From contig JAUZFQ010000139.1 of the NCBI GenBank assembly GCA_030838445.1, forward strand, positions 1 to 49,510: DNA of 49,510 nucleotides, in the 5' to 3' direction. A model generated the notes under the pieces. That model was not told the origin of the DNA and ran no database searches. It was given only the letters and a program-made list of their open reading frames with translations. The translations under genes and the position numbers were made by a program. This document shows positions 1-7,554 of this stretch, piece by piece; position 1 is the first letter of the stretch, and each line of letters starts with the position of its first letter. This DNA is from Pyrinomonadaceae bacterium (lineage in GTDB: Bacteria; Acidobacteriota; Blastocatellia; Pyrinomonadales; Pyrinomonadaceae).

Positions 1-29
1 TCCCAAGACACCCTACATAATGAGAAAGC

Positions 30-115
30 GCATAACGCCCGGCATCACCCGCCCGCCACTGCCGTTGATGTTGGGAAGTGCGCTATTGCGGGTCGGGTGC
101 ATGCCGTTGTTAGGT
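30..115 (-). repeat. integron attC recombination site 1
   Basis: The site ends in GTTAGGT (109-115) and begins near 30 with a degenerate RYYYAAC box. Its two halves fold back on one another: the left half with CCCGGCATCACCCGC pairs with the right half carrying GCGGGT and GGGTGCATGCCG, leaving extrahelical bases. The same core recurs in the sites at 573 and 2019. It lies just downstream of the SUKH gene, as expected for a cassette in minus orientation. Confidence 0.85.
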
Positions 116-565
116 GCGTTCTTTGATTAATGTTTCATACCATTCCTTTTTACCTCTCCACACGTCAACCAACGTTCCTTCGAGCGTTTCGTAGTCGTCC
201 CACTCACCGTCCCATTCAATGATTCTACCCGGAGCGTCGATCAAGATCACCCAGTATGAGCCGACGCCATAGTCGCCGATTGCCACGGCGCGCTGGAGAA
301 AGGTGGGGAAGTAGTCCTCGCTGCGAAGAATCAGCGTGGTTTCGACGAGGGATGTGTTTGAAAACGAAGAGGGCGTAAGCAGGGGGTAAAAGAACGCCGC
401 ATTAGCCGGCCCGGCGAAGCCGTTGAAATTTAGATAAAGCTCCGTCAGCAGCGGCGGTAATGGATGCCCCAACAGTCCCTCCGCTTTCACTATGTCAGAA
501 GGAGTACAAGCGGCTCCAAAGGGGAAGCCTTCAAAGAGTTCCCGGATTTGTTGAGCGATATTCAT
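110..565 (-). CDS. SMI1/KNR4 (SUKH) family protein, integron cassette
   Basis: This 151-aa protein has the N-terminal signature of the SUKH superfamily: a helix with KAEGLLG, then LPPLLTELYLNFNG, followed by a beta-rich region and the IIEWDGEWDDYETLEGT segment. In bacteria SUKH proteins are commonly immunity proteins against polymorphic toxins, although many copies are orphans, as here. No toxin lies next to it. The stop codon TAA is formed by the R'' box of its own attC site, and the ATG lies only 7 bases from the box of the next attC, so the gene fills the cassette exactly. Family assignment is fairly sure; an immunity role is inference. Confidence 0.82.
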   Translation of the reverse strand: MNIAQQIRELFEGFPFGAACTPSDIVKAEGLLGHPLPPLLTELYLNFNGFAGPANAAFFYPLLTPSSFSNTSLVETTLILRSEDYFPTFLQRAVAIGDYGVGSYWVILIDAPGRIIEWDGEWDDYETLEGTLVDVWRGKKEWYETLIKERT

Positions 566-572
566 GGGAGCA

Positions 573-659
573 GCCCAACGCCCGGCATCACCCGCGCGCT
601 GTTGCCATGATTGATAAGAGGCTCGCTAATTGCGCGTCGGGTGCGTGCCGTTGTTAGGC
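573..659 (-). repeat. integron attC recombination site 2
   Basis: Simple-site boxes GCCCAAC (573-579) and GTTAGGC (653-659) flank two arms that share a CGGCATCACCCGCGC-type core with site 1. The right arm contains GCGCGTCGGGTGCGTGCCG, which pairs with the left arm with unpaired bases. Length is 87 bp, typical for attC. Confidence 0.88.
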
Positions 660-680
660 GGAACTGAGTCGGATGCAACT

Positions 681-1322
681 TCAATTTAAAGGAGTATGAC
701 TCTCATAATATTTCATCCACAAATCCTGCATCTCTTTTGCCCCGCCCTTCGTCTTTATGATTTGCTGCAAGAGAGCCTGATGCGTGAAAGGATAACCCGC
801 CTTGTCATAGCGGTCTCTGTAATCTTCTTTTAGTTCATACCAATTGAATTTCAAGATGTGTTGTAAGGCATAGACTGCCGCCTCGCCTCTTGTCGGAGGC
901 TGGAACGGGTCAACATGCAGGTTGGTTTTAGATTTATCAGGAATCTGTTTGATCAGAAACGGCACTGTCTCCTGCTTATTCCGTCCGAAGAAAGCCTGCC
1001 ACCTCTGATTAGTGAATACGCCCGGAGCTTCGGCAGGCACGCTCTTATTGGCGAGAGCCTCAGATTGCGGGTTGTAATATACAGACCCGAACAGACAACC
1101 TCCCGCTTCAAGCAATCCCGCCCATTCATCCTCAACAGATTTCTCTTCGAGGTTGGCATCAGATGAGGCTGTGGGGCTGTTCACCGGTTCGGGGGTGGAC
1201 GAAGGAACAGCAACTGATGCCGGAGCAGATCGCTTACCAGCAAACCAGATTAGATAGACAACACTGACGCCAATGAGGAAAGTGGCTAATGTAATAGCGA
1301 GCCTGATTGCTGTTCGGTTCAT
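681..1322 (-). CDS. membrane-anchored protein of unknown function, integron cassette
   Basis: This 213-aa product starts with one hydrophobic segment (about residues 5-28, basic N-terminus) followed by a Ser/Thr/Pro-rich linker (about 35-60). It is likely a signal-anchor protein with an extracytoplasmic domain. The C-terminal 130 residues are mixed helical, with FTNQRWQAFFGRNKQETVPFL then RGEAAVYALQHIL, somewhat like a helical (HEAT-like) repeat; I do not recognise a family. I use the ATG at 1322 (MNRTAIRL) rather than the upstream GTG because it places the basic residues directly before the membrane segment. It sits alone between two attC sites, so it has no operon partner. Confidence 0.7.
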   Translation of the reverse strand: MNRTAIRLAITLATFLIGVSVVYLIWFAGKRSAPASVAVPSSTPEPVNSPTASSDANLEEKSVEDEWAGLLEAGGCLFGSVYYNPQSEALANKSVPAEAPGVFTNQRWQAFFGRNKQETVPFLIKQIPDKSKTNLHVDPFQPPTRGEAAVYALQHILKFNWYELKEDYRDRYDKAGYPFTHQALLQQIIKTKGGAKEMQDLWMKYYESHTPLN

Positions 1323-1353
1323 AGCTCTATCCCACGTCACTCAAGATTGTTCC

Positions 1354-1456
1354 GCCTAACGCTCGAAGTAACCGGGCGGGAAGAATTGTATCAAGCCTTC
1401 AATCCTCGCGAATGACATGGAAGCTGATTCCGCTCCGGTTGAATGAGTTGTTAGCC
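1354..1456 (-). repeat. integron attC recombination site 3
   Basis: Boxes GCCTAAC (1354-1360) and GTTAGCC (1450-1456) bound a 103-bp site. AACCGGGCGG on the left pairs imperfectly with CGCTCCGGTT on the right. The arms differ from those of sites 1, 2 and 4, so this cassette probably has another origin. Confidence 0.8.
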
Positions 1457-1496
1457 GCCCGTGCCGGATTTTGACCTGGCCTTCCTGTCGAGTCGC

Positions 1497-1982
1497 TTAG
1501 GTTCTCCGACGTGGGTTCACCATCTGGAAATCAGATATAAAACTATCAAGCATGGTCGTTAGTGTTGCATCCAGTGGCTTGCACCGAGCGTCACAAATCA
1601 TTTGCATCCGACGGCTCCACGTCATCGCCTGCTCACTTTTCCCGGTGCGGTTAATCGTCGCTGGTTGCCGGACCTCGAGCGAGAGAAACACTGCATACAC
1701 CTTGAGACGTGCGTCGTACCTTGCATAGATTGAAACCAAAAGAATGGCCGGCCCCTCCGTGTTCAATTTCACCCCACCTTTCTCAAGTCGTGCGCGCACC
1801 GCCATCTCTTCCTTATAGAGGCGGTCAAACTCTCTGGGTACGGAGATAAAGAGCGTTAGCCCGTCCAGGCCGCGCAGCGATTCTCGTTGCTCGCGGTAAT
1901 ACCTCTCGACGTCCTCCTGTTGTGCGAAAGAAGGAACAGAGCCGAGTAGCAGGAGCATGCCCATCAAGATAATCTTTTTCAT
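1497..1982 (-). CDS. exported protein of unknown function, integron cassette
   Basis: The 161-aa protein begins with a clear Sec signal peptide: MKK, a hydrophobic Met/Leu core, and a VPSFAQQ cleavage region near residue 20. The mature part has regular secondary structure; ILLVSIYARYDARLKVYAVFLSLEVRQPA reads as paired beta strands. I do not recognise a family. A purine-rich AGAGAGAGG lies about 8 bases before the ATG on the minus strand, a plausible ribosome binding site. It is the only gene of its cassette, bounded by attC sites on both sides. Confidence 0.72.
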   Translation of the reverse strand: MKKIILMGMLLLLGSVPSFAQQEDVERYYREQRESLRGLDGLTLFISVPREFDRLYKEEMAVRARLEKGGVKLNTEGPAILLVSIYARYDARLKVYAVFLSLEVRQPATINRTGKSEQAMTWSRRMQMICDARCKPLDATLTTMLDSFISDFQMVNPRRRT

Positions 1983-2018
1983 CGGATGTACCTCTCTCTA
2001 CTAGACTGTCGCAAAGGA

Positions 2019-2105
2019 GCCTAACGCCGGGCATCAGCGGCGCGCACATAACCTAAAAGATAAGAGGCATGTTGGGGGCGCGTCCGCTACATGCCGTTGT
2101 TAGGC
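2019..2105 (-). repeat. integron attC recombination site 4
   Basis: GCCTAAC (2019-2025) and GTTAGGC (2099-2105) bound an 87-bp site. The left arm GCCGGGCATCAGCGGCGCG pairs with the right arm GCGCGTCCGCTACATGCCG. The core matches sites 1 and 2. Confidence 0.88.
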
Positions 2106-2486
2106 TTTTAGCAAAGCGAAGCTCCCCTTGATCGAACTCCCGACGCCGTATTCAAAAGTCACAGATAGACCAACGAAGCTGAGCGTCAGAGACAGTTGCG
2201 CCACCTCACTATTGAACTCAATTCTGCCGTCGGGGCCTGATTGAGCAACCCGCTCCAGCCGCCCCGTGAAATGCACGACGTTGGGCAGCCCCCCCAAGGC
2301 GAAACACTCAAGGCCCTCACCGTGCACGCCGACGACTCCGAGGAAGCGGGACTCTCGCGGGCCATGAATCTCCAGAGCGATGCCATACCGGTATGGTCGG
2401 ATGAGGACTTCAACCGACGAGTCGGCGTTGCAGTATCGCCCCGCCTTACTCCGGATAAACTCTAGGGCTGGAACGCGTGTAATCAT
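2100..2486 (-). CDS. hypothetical protein, integron cassette
   Basis: This 128-aa product has no signal peptide or membrane segment. It is rich in predicted beta strands (SVEVLIRPYRYGIALEIHG, VAQLSLTLSFVGLSVTFEYG) and looks like a small cytoplasmic beta protein; no family is recognised. The attC box to its right is only 7 bases from the ATG, so the whole cassette leader is about 14 bases and holds just an AGGA-type ribosome binding site. The stop codon TAA lies inside the downstream attC box. It must depend on an outside promoter or read-through from a neighbouring cassette. Confidence 0.7.
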   Translation of the reverse strand: MITRVPALEFIRSKAGRYCNADSSVEVLIRPYRYGIALEIHGPRESRFLGVVGVHGEGLECFALGGLPNVVHFTGRLERVAQSGPDGRIEFNSEVAQLSLTLSFVGLSVTFEYGVGSSIKGSFALLKA

Positions 2487-2493
2487 GTCCTAT

Positions 2494-2580
2494 GCCTAAC
2501 TCCGGGGATAACCGGCGAGCAGTTAACTTGAGGATGAAAGAGCCGCTATATTGCGAGTCCGGTTCATCCCCTTGTTAGGC
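2494..2580 (-). repeat. integron attC recombination site 5
   Basis: GCCTAAC (2494-2500) and GTTAGGC (2574-2580) bound the 87-bp site. GGGGATAACCGG on the left pairs imperfectly with CCGGTTCATCCCC on the right. Its core differs from sites 1, 2 and 4. Confidence 0.88.
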
Positions 2581-2799
2581 CGTGCGCTCGATAAAGCCTC
2601 TGCCTTCACACCTGGCGCAACCGTCGAGTGCCGCTACGTGAACCCCGCTCACGCTAGACTCATGACACACCGTGCCCCTGCCCTCGCACTCCGGGCAAGT
2701 CGTGAAGTGCTCGGATGACGAGCGGAGCGGGTCGCCCGCCTTAAACTGAGCCGCGAACAACCTCCGCCGGATCTTCTGTTTTAGGTCTTCAGCACCCAT
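2575..2799 (-). CDS. small CxxCxGxG zinc-finger protein, integron cassette
   Basis: The 74-aa protein has two cysteine knuckles of the DnaJ central-domain type: CPECEGRGT near the middle and CARCEGRGF close to the C-terminus, separated by about 22 residues. A single pair like this could bind one zinc ion. The N-terminal third is basic and helical (EDLKQKIRRRLFAAQF). I place the start at the ATG at 2799 because longer versions of the frame would begin inside the next attC site. The stop codon overlaps its own attC box. Function is unknown; a chaperone- or nucleic-acid-related zinc ribbon is possible. Confidence 0.68.
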   Translation of the reverse strand: MGAEDLKQKIRRRLFAAQFKAGDPLRSSSEHFTTCPECEGRGTVCHESSVSGVHVAALDGCARCEGRGFIERTA

Positions 2800-2822
2800 C
2801 GCGTACACCGATAAAGCTAACG

Positions 2823-2938
2823 GCCTAACGCTTGAGATGACGTGGGGCGAAACCGCCACCAAGCCCGCCAAAGTTTAACGGACAACGCGATAACAAAGTC
2901 GCTGCTGTTTCGCCCTCACGTCCATTGAATTGTTCGAC
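2823..2938 (-). repeat. integron attC recombination site 6
   Basis: GCCTAAC (2823-2829) and a variant box GTTCGAC (2932-2938) bound a 116-bp site. GACGTGGGGCGAAAC on the left pairs with GTTTCGCCCTCACGTC on the right. It is the longest well-formed site in this array. Confidence 0.8.
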
Positions 2939-2944
2939 AGCCCG

Positions 2945-3334
2945 TTATTTATCGAGCGTTCGCTGCAAATCTCGAAGCCCGTCTTTCTCTTCGGGCGTTA
3001 GTTCAAAGAGTGTTTTGCCAAACTGTATCTTTACATCTTTAGCTTTTAACATTGCCTCAAAGTCTGCAAACGGAAGCAGAGGCGATATAAGGACTTCGTA
3101 ACATTCCTTTTCTTTCCTCGGATTACAAGATGCCGTTATCAGTTTTGCTTCGCTTTGTGCCGTACCTTTTTTGTCAAGAATGATGACAACCTTGCGATTG
3201 TCTTTGTATTTGAAGCCGTTGTCTGAAAACGATTGATAAAAGAACTGAAAGCCTTTCGGTTTTGCGCCCCCTTGGTCTGACGGAACTTCAAATGTGGCGC
3301 GAATTATTAGCCCGCGCCGAGCGCCAGCGACAAT
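2945..3334 (-). pseudogene. 5'-truncated cassette gene without a start codon
   Basis: A minus-strand frame is open for about 129 codons down to a TAA at 2945-2947. It reads as a sensible soluble protein, including GFQFFYQSFSDNGFKYKD, KVVIILDKKGT, ECYEVLISPLLPF and FELTPEEKDGLRDL. There is no ATG or GTG in frame before a Met about 37 residues from the end, so the N-terminus is missing. At the same point the right-hand attC has lost its R' box. The simplest reading is one deletion that fused the attC stem to the interior of the gene. The family is not recognised. Confidence 0.66.
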
Positions 3335-3399
3335 TTACATCGAAGGAAGCATGATGAAAAGAATGCTGTCGAGGCGTCGGGTTGAATGAGTCGTTAGAT
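3311..3399 (-). repeat. degenerate attC site 7 (one end box lost)
   Basis: The box GTTAGAT (3393-3399) and the inner stem are present: CCCGCGCC at 3311 pairs with GGCGTCGGG at about 3373-3381, with one unpaired base. The expected second end box left of 3311 is replaced by a TTATTAG-like sequence. The damage coincides with the missing start of the adjacent cassette gene. Confidence 0.6.
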
Positions 3400-3412
3400 T
3401 GCGGCGTTATCA

Positions 3413-4273
3413 TTAAGCCTTCTGCCGAAGATTCTTATCTAACCATTTTGTGCGCTCAAGAAGTTGCTTCGAGCTTTCAGTTGTTTCAGAGAATTTAAGG
3501 ACAGCATCTTGATTGTCTAAACGCACTTCTCCAATTGTATCGGCTAATGAGATTACGGCATTAACAACTTCTTCAGCCTTATCTCTCGCTAATACTGCTA
3601 CTCCCGCAGCCGGAGCGCCAACAGTAGCGACAGCCCAAGCCAGTTCATTTATGCAAATTACCTGACCCCGCTCTTGATAGTATCCGCCAAGAGTCGGAAT
3701 CTCAGAAGTGTTGAAAGATTGTGGGGCTGTACTTGGGCTAACGTGAACGCCGATTTCACACAGCAGTCCATATTTTTCGCTATCGGTAGGCACGCCTGTA
3801 CCCAGATCCTCAAGAGTTTCTCTCACTTTAGCTGGTCTAAAATTGCGCCATCTATCCTTTTCATTTGAATCTATCCACTTTCTAATCATCTCTGGTTTCT
3901 CGAAAAACAAATACATGAGATTACCTGTCTCAGCTATATTCCGCGTTAATGATAACGCCTCATCATAGTGACCAAAATGGATTAAGCGAAGGGCAGCAAG
4001 AGCAGAACTAACAGATCGCCCTACGAGCCTTTCGATAATATGTTCGAGGCCATGACACCCCCAATAACAGGAAGCAAGTCTATCAAGAAGCGACAAGGCT
4101 GTCCCAAGTTTTGATAGAGTAACCTGAGCGCCATCTCCAAGTTTGGGTAGGTGCTCAAGCGATTTTTGTTCGCAAACATTTTGATGATTCAATACAGCAC
4201 TCAAAAACTCACGACCGCTTGGAATCGCAGAATTGACTTCAGGATTTGTTTTATTCTCCATAAGTAACTTCAT
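3413..4273 (-). CDS. 286-aa hypothetical protein, AT-rich integron cassette
   Basis: The protein is mostly alpha-helical and soluble. Notable stretches are SVSSALAALRLIHFGHYDEALSL, TRNIAETGNLMYLFFEKPEMIRKWI and KAEEVVNAVISLADTIGE. The pattern of an arginine-containing helix, NIAETGNL and then a hydrophobic segment resembles DUF5677-type proteins, but this is a weak impression. Base composition is visibly AT-richer than the surrounding chromosome, as is common for recently acquired cassettes. The start could be the first Met (4273) or Met5 (4261), since an AGAGG lies next to the first. The stop codon is 14 bases from the attC box. Function unknown. Confidence 0.7.
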   Translation of the reverse strand: MKLLMENKTNPEVNSAIPSGREFLSAVLNHQNVCEQKSLEHLPKLGDGAQVTLSKLGTALSLLDRLASCYWGCHGLEHIIERLVGRSVSSALAALRLIHFGHYDEALSLTRNIAETGNLMYLFFEKPEMIRKWIDSNEKDRWRNFRPAKVRETLEDLGTGVPTDSEKYGLLCEIGVHVSPSTAPQSFNTSEIPTLGGYYQERGQVICINELAWAVATVGAPAAGVAVLARDKAEEVVNAVISLADTIGEVRLDNQDAVLKFSETTESSKQLLERTKWLDKNLRQKA

Positions 4274-4283
4274 CCTCTGAGCA

Positions 4284-4341
4284 ATCTAACGCCTATTCTA
4301 CCGCAGGGTGCGGCAGAATTACGCCGGAGAGCGTGTTATAC
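4284..4341 (-). repeat. short attC-like site 8
   Basis: ATCTAAC (4284-4290) and GTTATAC (4335-4341) could be end boxes of a 58-bp site. The interior contains a strong hairpin (ATTCTACCGCA, loop GGG, TGCGGCAGAAT). It is at the lower size limit for attC and overlaps the 40-bp repeat, so it is less certain than the others. Confidence 0.45.
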
Positions 4342-4420
4342 CGCGGGGTGCGGCAGAACTCCGTAATAGGGCGGCAAATGCCGCACGGTGCGGCCTAACA
4401 CGCCCGAATGTGTGTTTAAT
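4301..4420. repeat. three-unit 40-bp tandem repeat with hairpin heads
   Basis: The motif CCGC(A/G)(G/C)GGTGCGG occurs at 4301, 4341 and 4381, spaced exactly 40 bp. Each copy is a short hairpin (CCGCA / TGCGG, looser in copy 2). The rest of each unit is degenerate. The array lies between attC-like boxes and no gene occupies it. Confidence 0.8.
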
Positions 4421-4466
4421 GCCGCTCACACACCTCATAGCTGAGCAGCATCCTCTTGCGTTAGGC
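4393..4466 (-). repeat. integron attC recombination site 9
   Basis: GCCTAAC (4393-4399) and GTTAGGC (4460-4466) bound a 74-bp site with an inner TGTGTG / CACACA stem. It directly follows the HTH gene, whose stop codon lies in the box. Confidence 0.72.
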
Positions 4467-4745
4467 GCGACCGTGCTTGGGCTTGGCGGGAAGTTTGGCG
4501 GGCAGGTCGAGTTTGTCGTTGGCAAGGATGTCGAGGCAGACGCCAGCGACTTCCGCGTATTTCAGGAGCACCAAGAGAGGCGGCTCGCGCTTGCCTAACT
4601 CGTACTCTGAGATCGTGTTCTGTCCCATCATTTCCTCCGCGCCCATCTGCTTGATCATCCCGTTCTGAGAAAGACCAAACGCCTCTCGAATCTGGCGCAG
4701 CTTGGCGGCTAGATGCTTCGGCTTGTGACGCGCTCTTGCTCCCAT
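4461..4745 (-). CDS. XRE-family HTH transcriptional regulator, first cassette
   Basis: This 94-aa DNA-binding protein has a Cro/CI-type helix-turn-helix over about residues 12-70: LAAKLRQIREAFGLSQNGMI, then MMGQNTISEYELGKREPPLLVLLKYAEVAGV. The C-terminal tail is basic and Lys/Pro-rich. It is the rightmost gene of the cassette array, and its stop codon overlaps the attC at 4393. A perfect 22-bp palindrome lies 45 bases upstream of the ATG, suggesting autoregulation. Such solo regulators in cassettes can be antitoxin-like, but no toxin gene is adjacent. Confidence 0.85.
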   Translation of the reverse strand: MGARARHKPKHLAAKLRQIREAFGLSQNGMIKQMGAEEMMGQNTISEYELGKREPPLLVLLKYAEVAGVCLDILANDKLDLPAKLPAKPKHGRA

Positions 4746-4789
4746 CAGGCGCGGCCTCCTGATCGGGCATAGGGCAGACGCAGCTTGCT

Positions 4790-4811
4790 ATTAACGGCAA
4801 ATGCCGTTAAT
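4790..4811. promoter_or_regulatory. 22-bp perfect palindrome, probable operator
   Basis: ATTAACGGCA and TGCCGTTAAT are perfect inverted arms of 10 bp separated by AA. The position, 45-66 bases upstream of the HTH gene start, fits an operator for that regulator. The rest of the gap to 5052 shows no convincing gene or attI site. Confidence 0.65.
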
Positions 4812-5052
4812 ATGTGATTGCGTAACGTGGTCGCCGTGAGTGTGAACCTCTCAACTCGAACGGCGATGCTCATTCACTCCTTTGAGGTTGAGGTTGAGCT
4901 ACGCATGACCGTCACTAATTTTCAAAGCAGATCGCGCGGCATCATAACAGACCGCCCGCGCGTTCGTCTTGCTCCTGCTTGGCTGGCGTCGCAGTCGGCA
5001 GGGGCGCGCGGGGCTTGTGCCTCAAGGACAGTGCATGCCCCGCGTTAATCCT

Positions 5053-5415
5053 ATGCCTCACCTCCTGCTAGTCGAAGATACAGAGATCGTAGCCGATGCC
5101 GTCAGAGAGATGCTTGAAGCGGAGGGCTGGCACGTCGAGACATGCGCCGATGGCTTTAAGGCTTTGCGCTTGATTGAGAGCGGCGCGCGGTATGATCTGC
5201 TATTGCTGGATAACGAACTGCCGAACATGTGCGGGCTGGAACTGGCACGCAGAGCGCGCGGGCTGGATCATCGTCAGCGGACGCCGATCATTATGATTTC
5301 CGCGAGCGAGTGCGGGCGTGCGGCGCGGCGCGCGGGCGCGGACGCTTTCATCAGGAAGCCGGAGGGCTTCGGGCGTCTGGTCGAGATTATCGCCCGCCTG
5401 CTCGATGCGTCTTGA
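5053..5415 (+). CDS. single-domain response regulator (receiver only)
   Basis: The 120-aa protein is a complete CheY-like receiver domain with no output domain. Visible key residues are the acidic pair E8-D9, phospho-acceptor D53 in LLLLDNELP, S83 in the IIMISAS strand, and K102 in FIRKP. It would receive phosphate from a histidine kinase that is not nearby. I choose the ATG at 5053 (MPHLLLVED) because the domain begins there; the ATG at 5035 is possible. The stop is followed 3 bases later, in the same frame, by the 21-bp repeat tract, so an ancestral longer protein is conceivable. Confidence 0.88.
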   Translation: MPHLLLVEDTEIVADAVREMLEAEGWHVETCADGFKALRLIESGARYDLLLLDNELPNMCGLELARRARGLDHRQRTPIIMISASECGRAARRAGADAFIRKPEGFGRLVEIIARLLDAS

Positions 5416-5418
5416 GCC

Positions 5419-5895
5419 GTGAAAGTCCCGGTTTACAGTGTGAAAGACGCAATTCGCCACGCGAAAGGCTGCGTTTGCACGGCTAAAGTATGGATTTACA
5501 ACGCTTAAGCCTGAATTTGCAGAGTGAAACTATGAATCCGCACCGTGAAAGTATCAATTTGCATGGCAAAAGTTGTGGGCGCGAAAGTTCCGGCCGCGCA
5601 TGTCCGAGACGCGGCTGAGCGCGTAAAAGCTGCCGTTGCACACGTTAGAGGGGCGGATGAGCGCGTCAGAGACGCCGCTGAGCGTGTCAGAGGGGCGGCT
5701 GAGCGTGTCAAACATGCCGCTGAGCAATGCATACATGCCGCTGAGCGTGTTGAAGGTGTCGCTGAGCGGGTAAAACATGTCGCTGAGCACGCCAAACAGG
5801 TGGATGAGCGCGTCGGAGAGGCGAATGAGCGGGCGAGAGGCGCGGGTGGGCGTGTCGGAGGGGCGGTTGAGCGTCTGGTGGGCGCGTGTGTGCGG
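5419..5895 (+). repeat. about 23 degenerate 21-bp tandem repeats (heptad-coding)
   Basis: From 5419 nearly every 21 bases repeats a unit. The first nine or so resemble GTGAAAG...TTTGCA; from about 5602 units resemble GTCAGAG..GCCGCTGAGCG. There is one 6-base deletion (unit at 5566 is 15 bp), which keeps the frame. Read on the plus strand each unit is a heptad of the form V-R/K-x-A-A-E-R, a coiled-coil-like pattern, in frame with the preceding response regulator but interrupted by stops at 5413, 5506, 5512 and 5533. A frame beginning GTG at 5545 stays open to 6042, but so do minus-strand frames because the period is a multiple of three. I therefore do not call a gene here. Confidence 0.85.
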
Positions 5896-5945
5896 GGTTT
5901 TGTGGGGGTGGCGCAAAATTTTCGGCGGGGCGCGCGGGAAATTTG

Positions 5946-6043
5946 TATAATGCCCGCCTTTCAAGGGGTTTCAGTGTCCTCGCAGTCCTTCAACTCACGG
6001 AAGGATGCCTCTCGTCCTTCCCTCACACTATTAAGGAGCTAAA
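5946..6043 (+). promoter_or_regulatory. promoter -10 and structured leader for the 6044 gene
   Basis: TATAAT lies at 5946-5951 with only a poor -35 upstream. The predicted leader of about 85 bases contains a hairpin (GGAAGGA 5999-6005 with TCCTTCC 6015-6021) and then the ribosome binding site AAGGAG (6033-6038), 5 bases before the ATG. Confidence 0.6.
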
Positions 6044-6727
6044 ATGAAAGATTCCGAAAGACGCAGTTTCGAGATGTTGCTCCGCGTGCGCGACTTCGGT
6101 GAGACGCACGTCGCGGCGTTCGCCGAAGGCTCGCGCGGGCGCGAGTTGCTTGCCGTCGTCAAACAGACCGTCGGCGAGTTGGAAAAGCACGGGGCGGTGC
6201 AGTCGTCGAGTCGCAACGAGGGGGCGCAGGGGACGCGCGGGCGTGCGGGCGCGCGTGCTGAACTGCGCGACGACCTCGAAGCCATCAGCCGCACGGCGCG
6301 CGCCATGTCCTTCGAGACGCCCGGCATCGCCGAACGCTTCCGCCTCCCGCGCGGCAACCGCAACGACCAGCAGTTGCTCGACACCGCGCGCGCCTTCGCC
6401 GCAGACGCCGTTGCGCTGCGTGCCGAGTTCGTTCGCCATGAACTGCCCGCAGACTTCCTCACAGACCTCGACGCAGACATCGCCGCTTTCGAGACGGCCA
6501 TCAGCACGCAGAACCGCAGCACGGAGGCGCGCGTCGCCGCCACCGAAGCGATTGACACAGCCATTGAGCGCGGCACGGACGCCGTGCGCCAACTGGACGC
6601 CGTCGTGCGTAACAAGTTTCGTGATGACCCGGCCTCGCTCGCCGCTTGGACGAGCGCGAGCCACGTGGAACGCGCGCCGCGCACGAAGCATGCGACGCCC
6701 CCTCCGGCCACGCAGCCCCGGCCGTAA
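6044..6727 (+). CDS. hypothetical alpha-helical protein
   Basis: The 227-aa product has no signal peptide or membrane segment and is strongly helical and charged. Examples are RSFEMLLRVRDFGETHVAAF, AELRDDLEAISRTARAM and ATEAIDTAIERGTDAVRQLDAVVRNKF; it may form a helical bundle. The C-terminal 25 residues are a disordered Pro/Thr/Arg tail. I do not recognise a family. A TATAAT promoter, a leader hairpin and a strong AAGGAG precede it and a large hairpin follows it, so it is probably a well-expressed single-gene unit. The 21-bp repeat tract ends just before its promoter. Confidence 0.8.
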   Translation: MKDSERRSFEMLLRVRDFGETHVAAFAEGSRGRELLAVVKQTVGELEKHGAVQSSSRNEGAQGTRGRAGARAELRDDLEAISRTARAMSFETPGIAERFRLPRGNRNDQQLLDTARAFAADAVALRAEFVRHELPADFLTDLDADIAAFETAISTQNRSTEARVAATEAIDTAIERGTDAVRQLDAVVRNKFRDDPASLAAWTSASHVERAPRTKHATPPPATQPRP

Positions 6728-6807
6728 GCGTGGGCGCGTGTTAGATCATCGAGCGCCGCGCGCGTAGCGTGTGAAAGTAAAAGCGTGCGCGACAGCGTGG
6801 AGAACAA

Positions 6808-6847
6808 CGCGGGGGCGCGGAGGAAGTCTATCCTCCGCGCCCCCGCG
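6808..6847. terminator. 17-bp perfect hairpin, bidirectional terminator
   Basis: Arms 6808-6824 and 6831-6847 are perfectly complementary with a 6-base loop. It lies between the convergent genes ending at 6727 (+) and 6925 (-). It lacks a U tract, so termination is inferred from position and strength. Confidence 0.7.
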
Positions 6848-6875
6848 CTGTGTGCGTTCTACTTGAGACAAGGCT

Positions 6876-6931
6876 CGGTTTAAACTTAACTGACCCGTTG
6901 AGAGTCAACGAACCCGGTTTAAACTCAACGG
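6876..6931. repeat. duplicated CGGTTTAAAC motif with inverted CCGTTGAG
   Basis: CGGTTTAAAC occurs at 6876-6885 and 6915-6924. CCGTTGAG (6895-6902) is the inverse of CTCAACGG (6924-6931), which contains the stop codon of the minus-strand gene. It looks like a local duplication of that gene's 3' end. Confidence 0.55.
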
Positions 6932-7554
6932 ACGCCGCCGCGCGACTGCAAGCCCATCAGCCGCGCCGGGAAGACGCCGAAGTCCTCGACCTCCCAGGTG
7001 TTGCCGTCTCTCAGCCTGACCTTCGCGGCGGGGATGAAAGTCCCCTCGCTCCCGCCGCGCCGCCGCAGGAAAATCTCCGCGTAGCCGAACCTGTAATCCT
7101 CCGAGCGCGACCCCTGTCGCACCTCGTAGAAGTTGATGTTGCGCTCGTAAAGCACGATGATCTTCGTCCCCATCTCGTGCGGCACGGAGATGATCGCGTT
7201 GGCGTCCACGCCCACGCCGTTCCCGACGATGATCCGCCCCGCCTCCATACGCGAAAGCACGCGCAGCAACTCGCTCTGCCCGCCCGACTGCAAGGCCGCG
7301 TTCAACTGCTGCACCTGGTCGGCCGACGTGTAGTTGTTGATGACGAGCCGGAACGGAGCCGTCCGCCCGCCGAAACGCCCGCCCACGCCCAAGACCGTCC
7401 CCAGTATCTCCTCCGGCGCGCGCGCCCCTTCAACCCGGCCGCCCCTCCGCTGCCCGTAGGCGGTCGTCGCCGCCGTCCCCGCCTGCAACACCGAAAGCGC
7501 CAACGCCGCGCAGCACAACACGCCCAACCATCCCGAAAGTTTTCTGTTCTTCAT
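6925..7554 (-). CDS. exported hypothetical protein
   Basis: The 209-aa protein starts MKNRK followed by a hydrophobic core and an Ala-rich cleavage region near residues 25-35, a Sec signal peptide. The mature part starts with a basic QRRGGR segment, then a beta-rich domain with FRLVINNYTSADQVQQLNAAL, AGRIIVGNGVGVDANAIISV and RIIVLYERN-like strands. I recognise no enzyme motif. The gene stands alone on the minus strand, about 145 bases downstream of the next minus-strand gene's start region, and ends within a local repeat. A periplasmic or outer-surface role is inferred only from the signal. Confidence 0.75.
   Translation of the reverse strand: MKNRKLSGWLGVLCCAALALSVLQAGTAATTAYGQRRGGRVEGARAPEEILGTVLGVGGRFGGRTAPFRLVINNYTSADQVQQLNAALQSGGQSELLRVLSRMEAGRIIVGNGVGVDANAIISVPHEMGTKIIVLYERNINFYEVRQGSRSEDYRFGYAEIFLRRRGGSEGTFIPAAKVRLRDGNTWEVEDFGVFPARLMGLQSRGGVR

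Follow-up and report, generated by a model that had tools for sequence, protein, structure and literature searches.

Clusters of gene cassettes that lack an integrase are usually treated as debris or as off-target insertions, and the locus described here raises the question of whether such a cluster can still be a place where cassettes are exchanged. The window analysed, 49,510 nucleotides, is a whole contig (G000:C84) of a 4.56-Mb MAG that is 84% complete, and the cassette array at its left end is interrupted by the contig edge at position 1. The distal end of the array and its left flank were found on a second contig of the same genome (G000:C106), where the left flank is 95.8% identical to that of a sister genome, and the genes to the right of 4.8 kb in the window are ordinary-looking chromosome. 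The sister carries the orthologous locus on G001:C49 (JAVEDE010000070.1, Pyrinomonadaceae bacterium BP_17), which bears out an earlier suggestion of an acidobacterial host; the host is a soil-type acidobacterium of the family Pyrinomonadaceae. Our reading, to which we give a probability of about three in four, is that the locus represents the body of a chromosomal integron, attI end included, whose integrase gene (intI) is missing, and that it serves as a satellite docking site.

The cassette array

Six good attC sites and one truncated site are interleaved with minus-strand genes between positions 30 and 3401, and at seven of seven the conventional top strand is the minus strand, matching the gene orientation (Table 1). 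Each cassette gene is thus paired with an attC of its own orientation while gene content is unrelated between arrays, and the tandem run of six good sites and one truncated site exceeds the at least two attC that make up a CALIN. With the attC model R2, five sites score 59-93 bits, attC6 reaches 37.7 bits and is normal though long, and loss of the R' box brings attC7 down to 19 bits; nothing comparable was scored outside the array over positions 1-7000. A second model, R1, trained on five of the window sites, gives 56-99 bits on those same sites, a partly circular score, and no more than 17 bits anywhere else in the 49.5 kb, and it recovers attC directly behind intact intI in other genera (e.g. 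G014:C248 and G031:C102). The stem pairs covary, with 164 double-sided changes across 54 distinct sites against 51.6 +/- 5.2 in shuffles. The first-pass annotation, which had described at least seven well-formed attC alternating with minus-strand genes and proposed covariance models as a check, is therefore upheld on the alternation and on the form of six sites, attC7 being the exception.

Table 1. Features of the array and its right flank (window coordinates; bit scores of attC sites from model R2).
Feature	Position	Strand	Evidence and remarks
attC1	30..117	-	85 bits; R'' CCTAAC, R' GTTATGC; most distal in contig
SUKH-1 (SMI1/KNR4) cassette gene, 151 aa	110..565	-	PF09346 36 bits, over cut-off
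attC2	573..661	-	93 bits
Cassette gene, about 213 aa, N-terminal hydrophobic stretch, no family	681..1322	-	
attC3	1354..1458	-	59 bits; sites up to 92% identical elsewhere, e.g. G031:C102
Cassette gene, exported protein, 161 aa, no family	1497..1982	-	
attC4	2019..2107	-	92 bits
Cassette gene, 128 aa, no family	2100..2486	-	
attC5	2494..2582	-	71 bits
Zinc-finger (DnaJ CxxCxGxG-like) cassette gene, 74 aa	2575..2799	-	77% nt homologue in sister array
attC6	2823..2940	-	37.7 bits; R'' GTCGAAC; long; 91% identical sites in G007 and G009
Cassette gene remnant without start codon, 5' end deleted	2948..3307	-	comparison with G017:C60 attC
attC7, truncated, R' box deleted	about 3306..3401	-	19 bits
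DUF5677-like cassette gene, 286 aa, first after attI	3413..4273	-	PF18928 24.9 bits, just under cut-off
attI	4284..4406	-	three tandem inverted repeats; crossover G(4290)|TT(4289-4288)AGAT
XRE-type HTH gene, chromosomal, reads towards attI	4461..4745	-	PF01381; 95.8% in sister
Perfect palindrome TTAACGGCAAATGCCGTTAA, upstream of HTH gene	4791..4810	.	sequence
Response regulator gene, divergent, of HTH-RR module	5035..5415	+	PF00072 73 bits

The damage at attC7 can be read by comparison with its homologue in G017:C60, which retains ...GGGCGTTATGC: where the homologue has GGGTTAATTCGGGCGTTATGC the window has GGGCTAATAATTCGCGCC and runs directly into a start-less frame. The gene previously drawn at 3139-3291 is this frame, truncated by the deletion that took the R' box, and parts of the array are therefore decaying. 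The genome of this homologue (loci L155 and L156), 95% complete, holds 99 attC matches spread over many contigs, and a search of it for intI found none.

When window positions 30-4284 were compared by BLAST with 60 related genomes, matches arose in 29, and among the non-self matches listed all fell on the seven attC intervals (72-92% identity, higher for very short pieces) apart from the zinc-finger cassette in G001. Matches that follow the attC rather than the genes are the signature of gene cassettes. Three of the products belong to no family, and at least one of these is exported; beside them are a SUKH protein, a DnaJ-type zinc finger and a DUF5677-like protein, together a mix typical of environmental cassettes; PADLOC defence and NCBIfam searches of the cassette proteins gave only weak HTH matches.

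An attI site at the head of the array

The hairpin-rich stretch at 4284-4406, between the stop of the HTH gene (4461) and the first cassette, had been taken for an eighth attC, and attI had been supposed to be missing or to lie right of the HTH gene. The stretch is itself the attI, homologous to family attI beside intact intI, and it heads the array as in a complete integron, its repeats ending ...TGCGGTAGAATAGGCG|TTAGAT. Reference attI were the stretches between intI and the first cassette cut from intI-bearing integrons of Pyrinomonadaceae; the window site aligns over its full length with the G009 attI, whose neighbouring intI is intact (z = 10.7), and over part of it with the G003/G063, G110 and G007 types (z 5.8-7.4). 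Its summed alignment score was reached by no other 123-nt tile of the window save for one tie, most likely a tile overlapping attI itself, and its crossover comes first when the 76 GTTRRRY sites of the window are ranked by the hairpin next to them. The attI covariance model R3, which has this site among its seven training sites, scores it at 132 bits. Read as an attC, 4285-4470 earned only 8-12 bits from the attC model. An nhmmer profile of 16 intI-linked attI proved too diverse and returned zero matches, and pairwise alignment with shuffles and the covariance model were used instead. A scan for sigma-70 promoters and terminators at attI found nothing.

The search for the integrase

No intI was found in the window by open reading frames and profile, and the TIGR02249 profile with tblastn found only Xer-like matches in G000, G001 and G002, three congeners that are all incomplete MAGs (84, 89 and 91%); in the family, 44 of 119 genomes have intI at E <= 1e-40. 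The single sister contig that spans the right flank, a split attI, cassettes and the left flank also holds none, so that an intI with patch domain beside attI, as in a complete integron, is absent at this locus. The Xer-like matches in the host genome itself (C184; C112, C98) score far below intI, and that on C184 is a 307-aa recombinase without patch, beside a trmFO-like gene. The annotation of the array as one without adjacent integrase, a CALIN by definition, thus stands, and of its two alternatives, an orphan CALIN or an array separated from its integrase, the second is a better match than a random orphan cluster, given that a true attI heads the array. Elsewhere in the family the G003 intI has a stop codon at residue 21. 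The same stop codon occurs on an apparently identical 21,920-bp contig assigned to two different genera (G003:C299 and G063:C216), probably through binning contamination in one of them.

Cassette changes since the split from the sister genome

Comparison with the sister provides a view of what has happened at the locus over a short evolutionary distance. The flanks are 96-97% identical, and nearly all proximal cassettes differ, a contrast drawn from one species pair. Only two cassettes have counterparts in both genomes: the distal one (94% nt) and the zinc-finger one (77% nt), besides which no cassette gene of the window has a homologue in the array of the sister. The distal region also shows one cassette-sized insertion or deletion. 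Retention of the distal cassette at 94% beside differing proximal ones points to polarity, with insertion at the attI end. The two sequences agree across the HTH gene and the repeats but diverge immediately after G|TTAG, which is the point at which an attI should recombine. In addition, the sister carries an extra attC-bearing cassette within attI, inserted into the second repeat at GAAG|TTCTGCC; the window has no cassette at this point, and neither its attI nor that of other loci is interrupted. The start of this insert shares a 9-bp match with the target, and cassette insertion is preferred over a target-site duplication because cassette starts in the family often read TTATGCCGC or TTAGCCGC, and because a full attC ends the insert. 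A comparison of the kind that the first-pass annotation had called for, here between two genomes, reveals cassette gain or loss at exact G|TT points.

Since the HTH-attI junction without intI is common to both genomes, the cassette changes postdate the departure of intI from the locus. Site-specific cassette exchange therefore went on after the local loss, presumably through an integrase acting in trans. Some of the differences could be losses rather than gains, and precise losses also need an integrase.

The HTH gene and response-regulator module

The HTH gene, previously listed as a cassette together with the SUKH, zinc-finger and exported-protein genes, is the one of that list to be removed. 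It is conserved with its right flank in the sister (95.8% for the HTH gene, 97.1% for the response regulator and 96.9% for the gene at 6044), and the element after it is attI and not an attC of its own. The palindrome and response regulator reported to its right are both present, and the palindrome is a probable operator. The HTH-RR pair is a multi-copy chromosomal module with many further copies in the genus and family. At this locus the HTH gene occupies the place expected for intI and points into the array, and on G002:C11 an attI is immediately preceded by a second, non-orthologous pair (49 and 60% aa identity), so that the HTH-attI arrangement has arisen or been copied more than once.

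Several further features of the flank were recorded. Between the divergently transcribed HTH and RR genes, a non-coding segment some 130 bp long (window 4800-4960; copies L032-L037, L030 and L031) is 82-89% identical between paralogous copies, compared with 66-79% nt for the HTH and most RR genes; it is absent from Rfam and has a predicted consensus fold with little covariation, and several paralogous copies bear a different palindrome near the HTH gene. An Rfam search of the window at gathering threshold gave zero matches. The gene at 6044 is preceded by a repeat of 21-bp period (5572-5895) and followed by a near-perfect inverted repeat (6804-6851, two 21-nt arms, 95%), probably a terminator, and in one gp4 relative, L161, this gene is present alone, without the array and without the HTH gene. 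A paralogue of it, 44% identical, adjoins another intI-less attI in G001:C109, accompanied by a similar repeat (L171, about 4440-4640).

Other attI sites without an integrase

The R3 model, with its seven training sites, was run on 40 genomes, and in the 15 of these from outside Pyrinomonadaceae, some of which have attC, it had no match. Besides the window and G001:C49, three of its training sites lack intI (G002:C1 and G001:C109 twice), and eleven held-out matches have attC in the right orientation 0.3-1.7 kb downstream (G003:C206, C4 and C301; G002:C11 twice and C28; G005:C30; G017:C24; G012:C37; G009:C99; G013:C374), which brings to about 14 the other family loci with intI-less attI and correctly oriented cassettes. 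No intI was found at the held-out loci fetched, a check that covered all but G003:C301 and one G002:C11 site. Matches below about 30 bits are individually weak, the crossover motif is shown by 12 of 18 sites and is imperfect at some, attC lies on the wrong side in two cases (G013:C31 and G035:C7), and several matches have no attC in reach. On G001:C109 (34840-41490; L145 / L171) two facing cassette arrays are each headed by an intI-less attI.

From these loci we draw a broader proposal that is tentative, its chances being slightly short of even: Pyrinomonadaceae genomes may hold several integrase-less attI docking sites, each at the head of a separate array, and a single integrase, or none of the genome's own, would serve them in trans; at two non-orthologous loci attI lies directly behind an XRE-response-regulator module that possibly supplies a regulated cassette promoter.

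Discussion

In the mechanism we favour, an integron integrase would act in trans on this attI, supplied from an unassembled part of the genome, by a visiting element, or by a gene recently lost elsewhere, and would recombine the folded bottom strand of attC, whose fold and covariation are seen here, into attI. The locus would thereby work as a satellite docking site, and the operator-controlled HTH promoter may, more speculatively, transcribe the proximal cassettes.

An integrase that sits beside another attI of the same genome and has escaped assembly, making this an ordinary integron with satellite arrays, has close to an even chance of being correct and overlaps with our preferred reading. 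The genome is 84% complete, and G009 and G031 combine an intact intI elsewhere in the genome with further intI-less attI-like sites; such an integrase is nonetheless missing from all three congeners (incomplete MAGs), none of which yielded a trans-acting candidate, and its discovery would alter the location of the integrase and not the mechanism at the locus. It is improbable that the locus is a fossil in which intI was lost ancestrally, the array has since been static or shrinking, and each genome has retained a different part of what was once a longer array. The truncated attC7, the gene without a start and the failure to find intI in the three MAGs of the genus agree with such a history, but the sister's cassette inside attI at an exact G|TT, with attI intact in the window and elsewhere, must reflect gain or precise excision after the split, and the identity of the zinc-finger cassettes is just 77%, against 96% in the flanks on either side. 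Slightly less probable again is a plain CALIN, formed by off-target insertion at a random chromosomal attG-like G|TT beside what is just a palindromic repeat at 4284-4406: in these genomes attC occur dispersed on many contigs, and off-target insertion has been put forward as an origin of CALINs (PMC8618304), but the repeats match intI-linked family attI end to end, the element also stands, correctly oriented, in front of arrays at several other loci, and it is absent from the 15 other-family genomes tested, including some with attC.

The satellite docking site that we prefer would matter beyond this locus. The clusters here start at a true attI and changed recently, so some of the clusters filed under CALIN may belong to functioning multi-site integrons whose docking sites lie apart, a reading that would alter both the counting of cassette arrays and the places at which one expects cassettes to be captured.

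Integrons and attC of Acidobacteria, CALINs and proposed CALIN origins are already known (PMC8618304, PMC8352920, PMC12444791), and our literature search, which reached few subscription journals, returned no paper on intI-less attI heading several arrays. A CALIN is a cluster of attC sites lacking an integron integrase (PMC8618304, PMC12444791), and the window array resembles one in its attC-bearing cassettes without intI nearby; it differs in starting at a recognisable attI and, together with its close relative, in showing exchange at exact crossover points after local intI loss. Integrons are known in Acidobacteriota (PMC8618304), and attC models for Acidobacteria exist (PMC8352920). The locus shares with the sedentary chromosomal integrons of this phylum its attI and attC type, the window-trained attC model finding intI-adjacent attC in G014, G031 and G003, but has an HTH gene in the place of intI. 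In Xanthomonas, intI has been lost and arrays persist in many strains (PMC12444791), a persistence that our locus shares; in X. citri pv. citri, however, every strain has an identical pair of cassettes in its CALIN, which is interpreted as inactivated (PMC12444791), whereas the cassettes of the window locus changed after intI loss. The truncated-attI cassettes of mobile integrons, in which short attI pieces lie inside class 1 and 2 arrays (PMC12901181), likewise place attI-derived sequence away from intI, whereas here full attI sites head separate chromosomal arrays.
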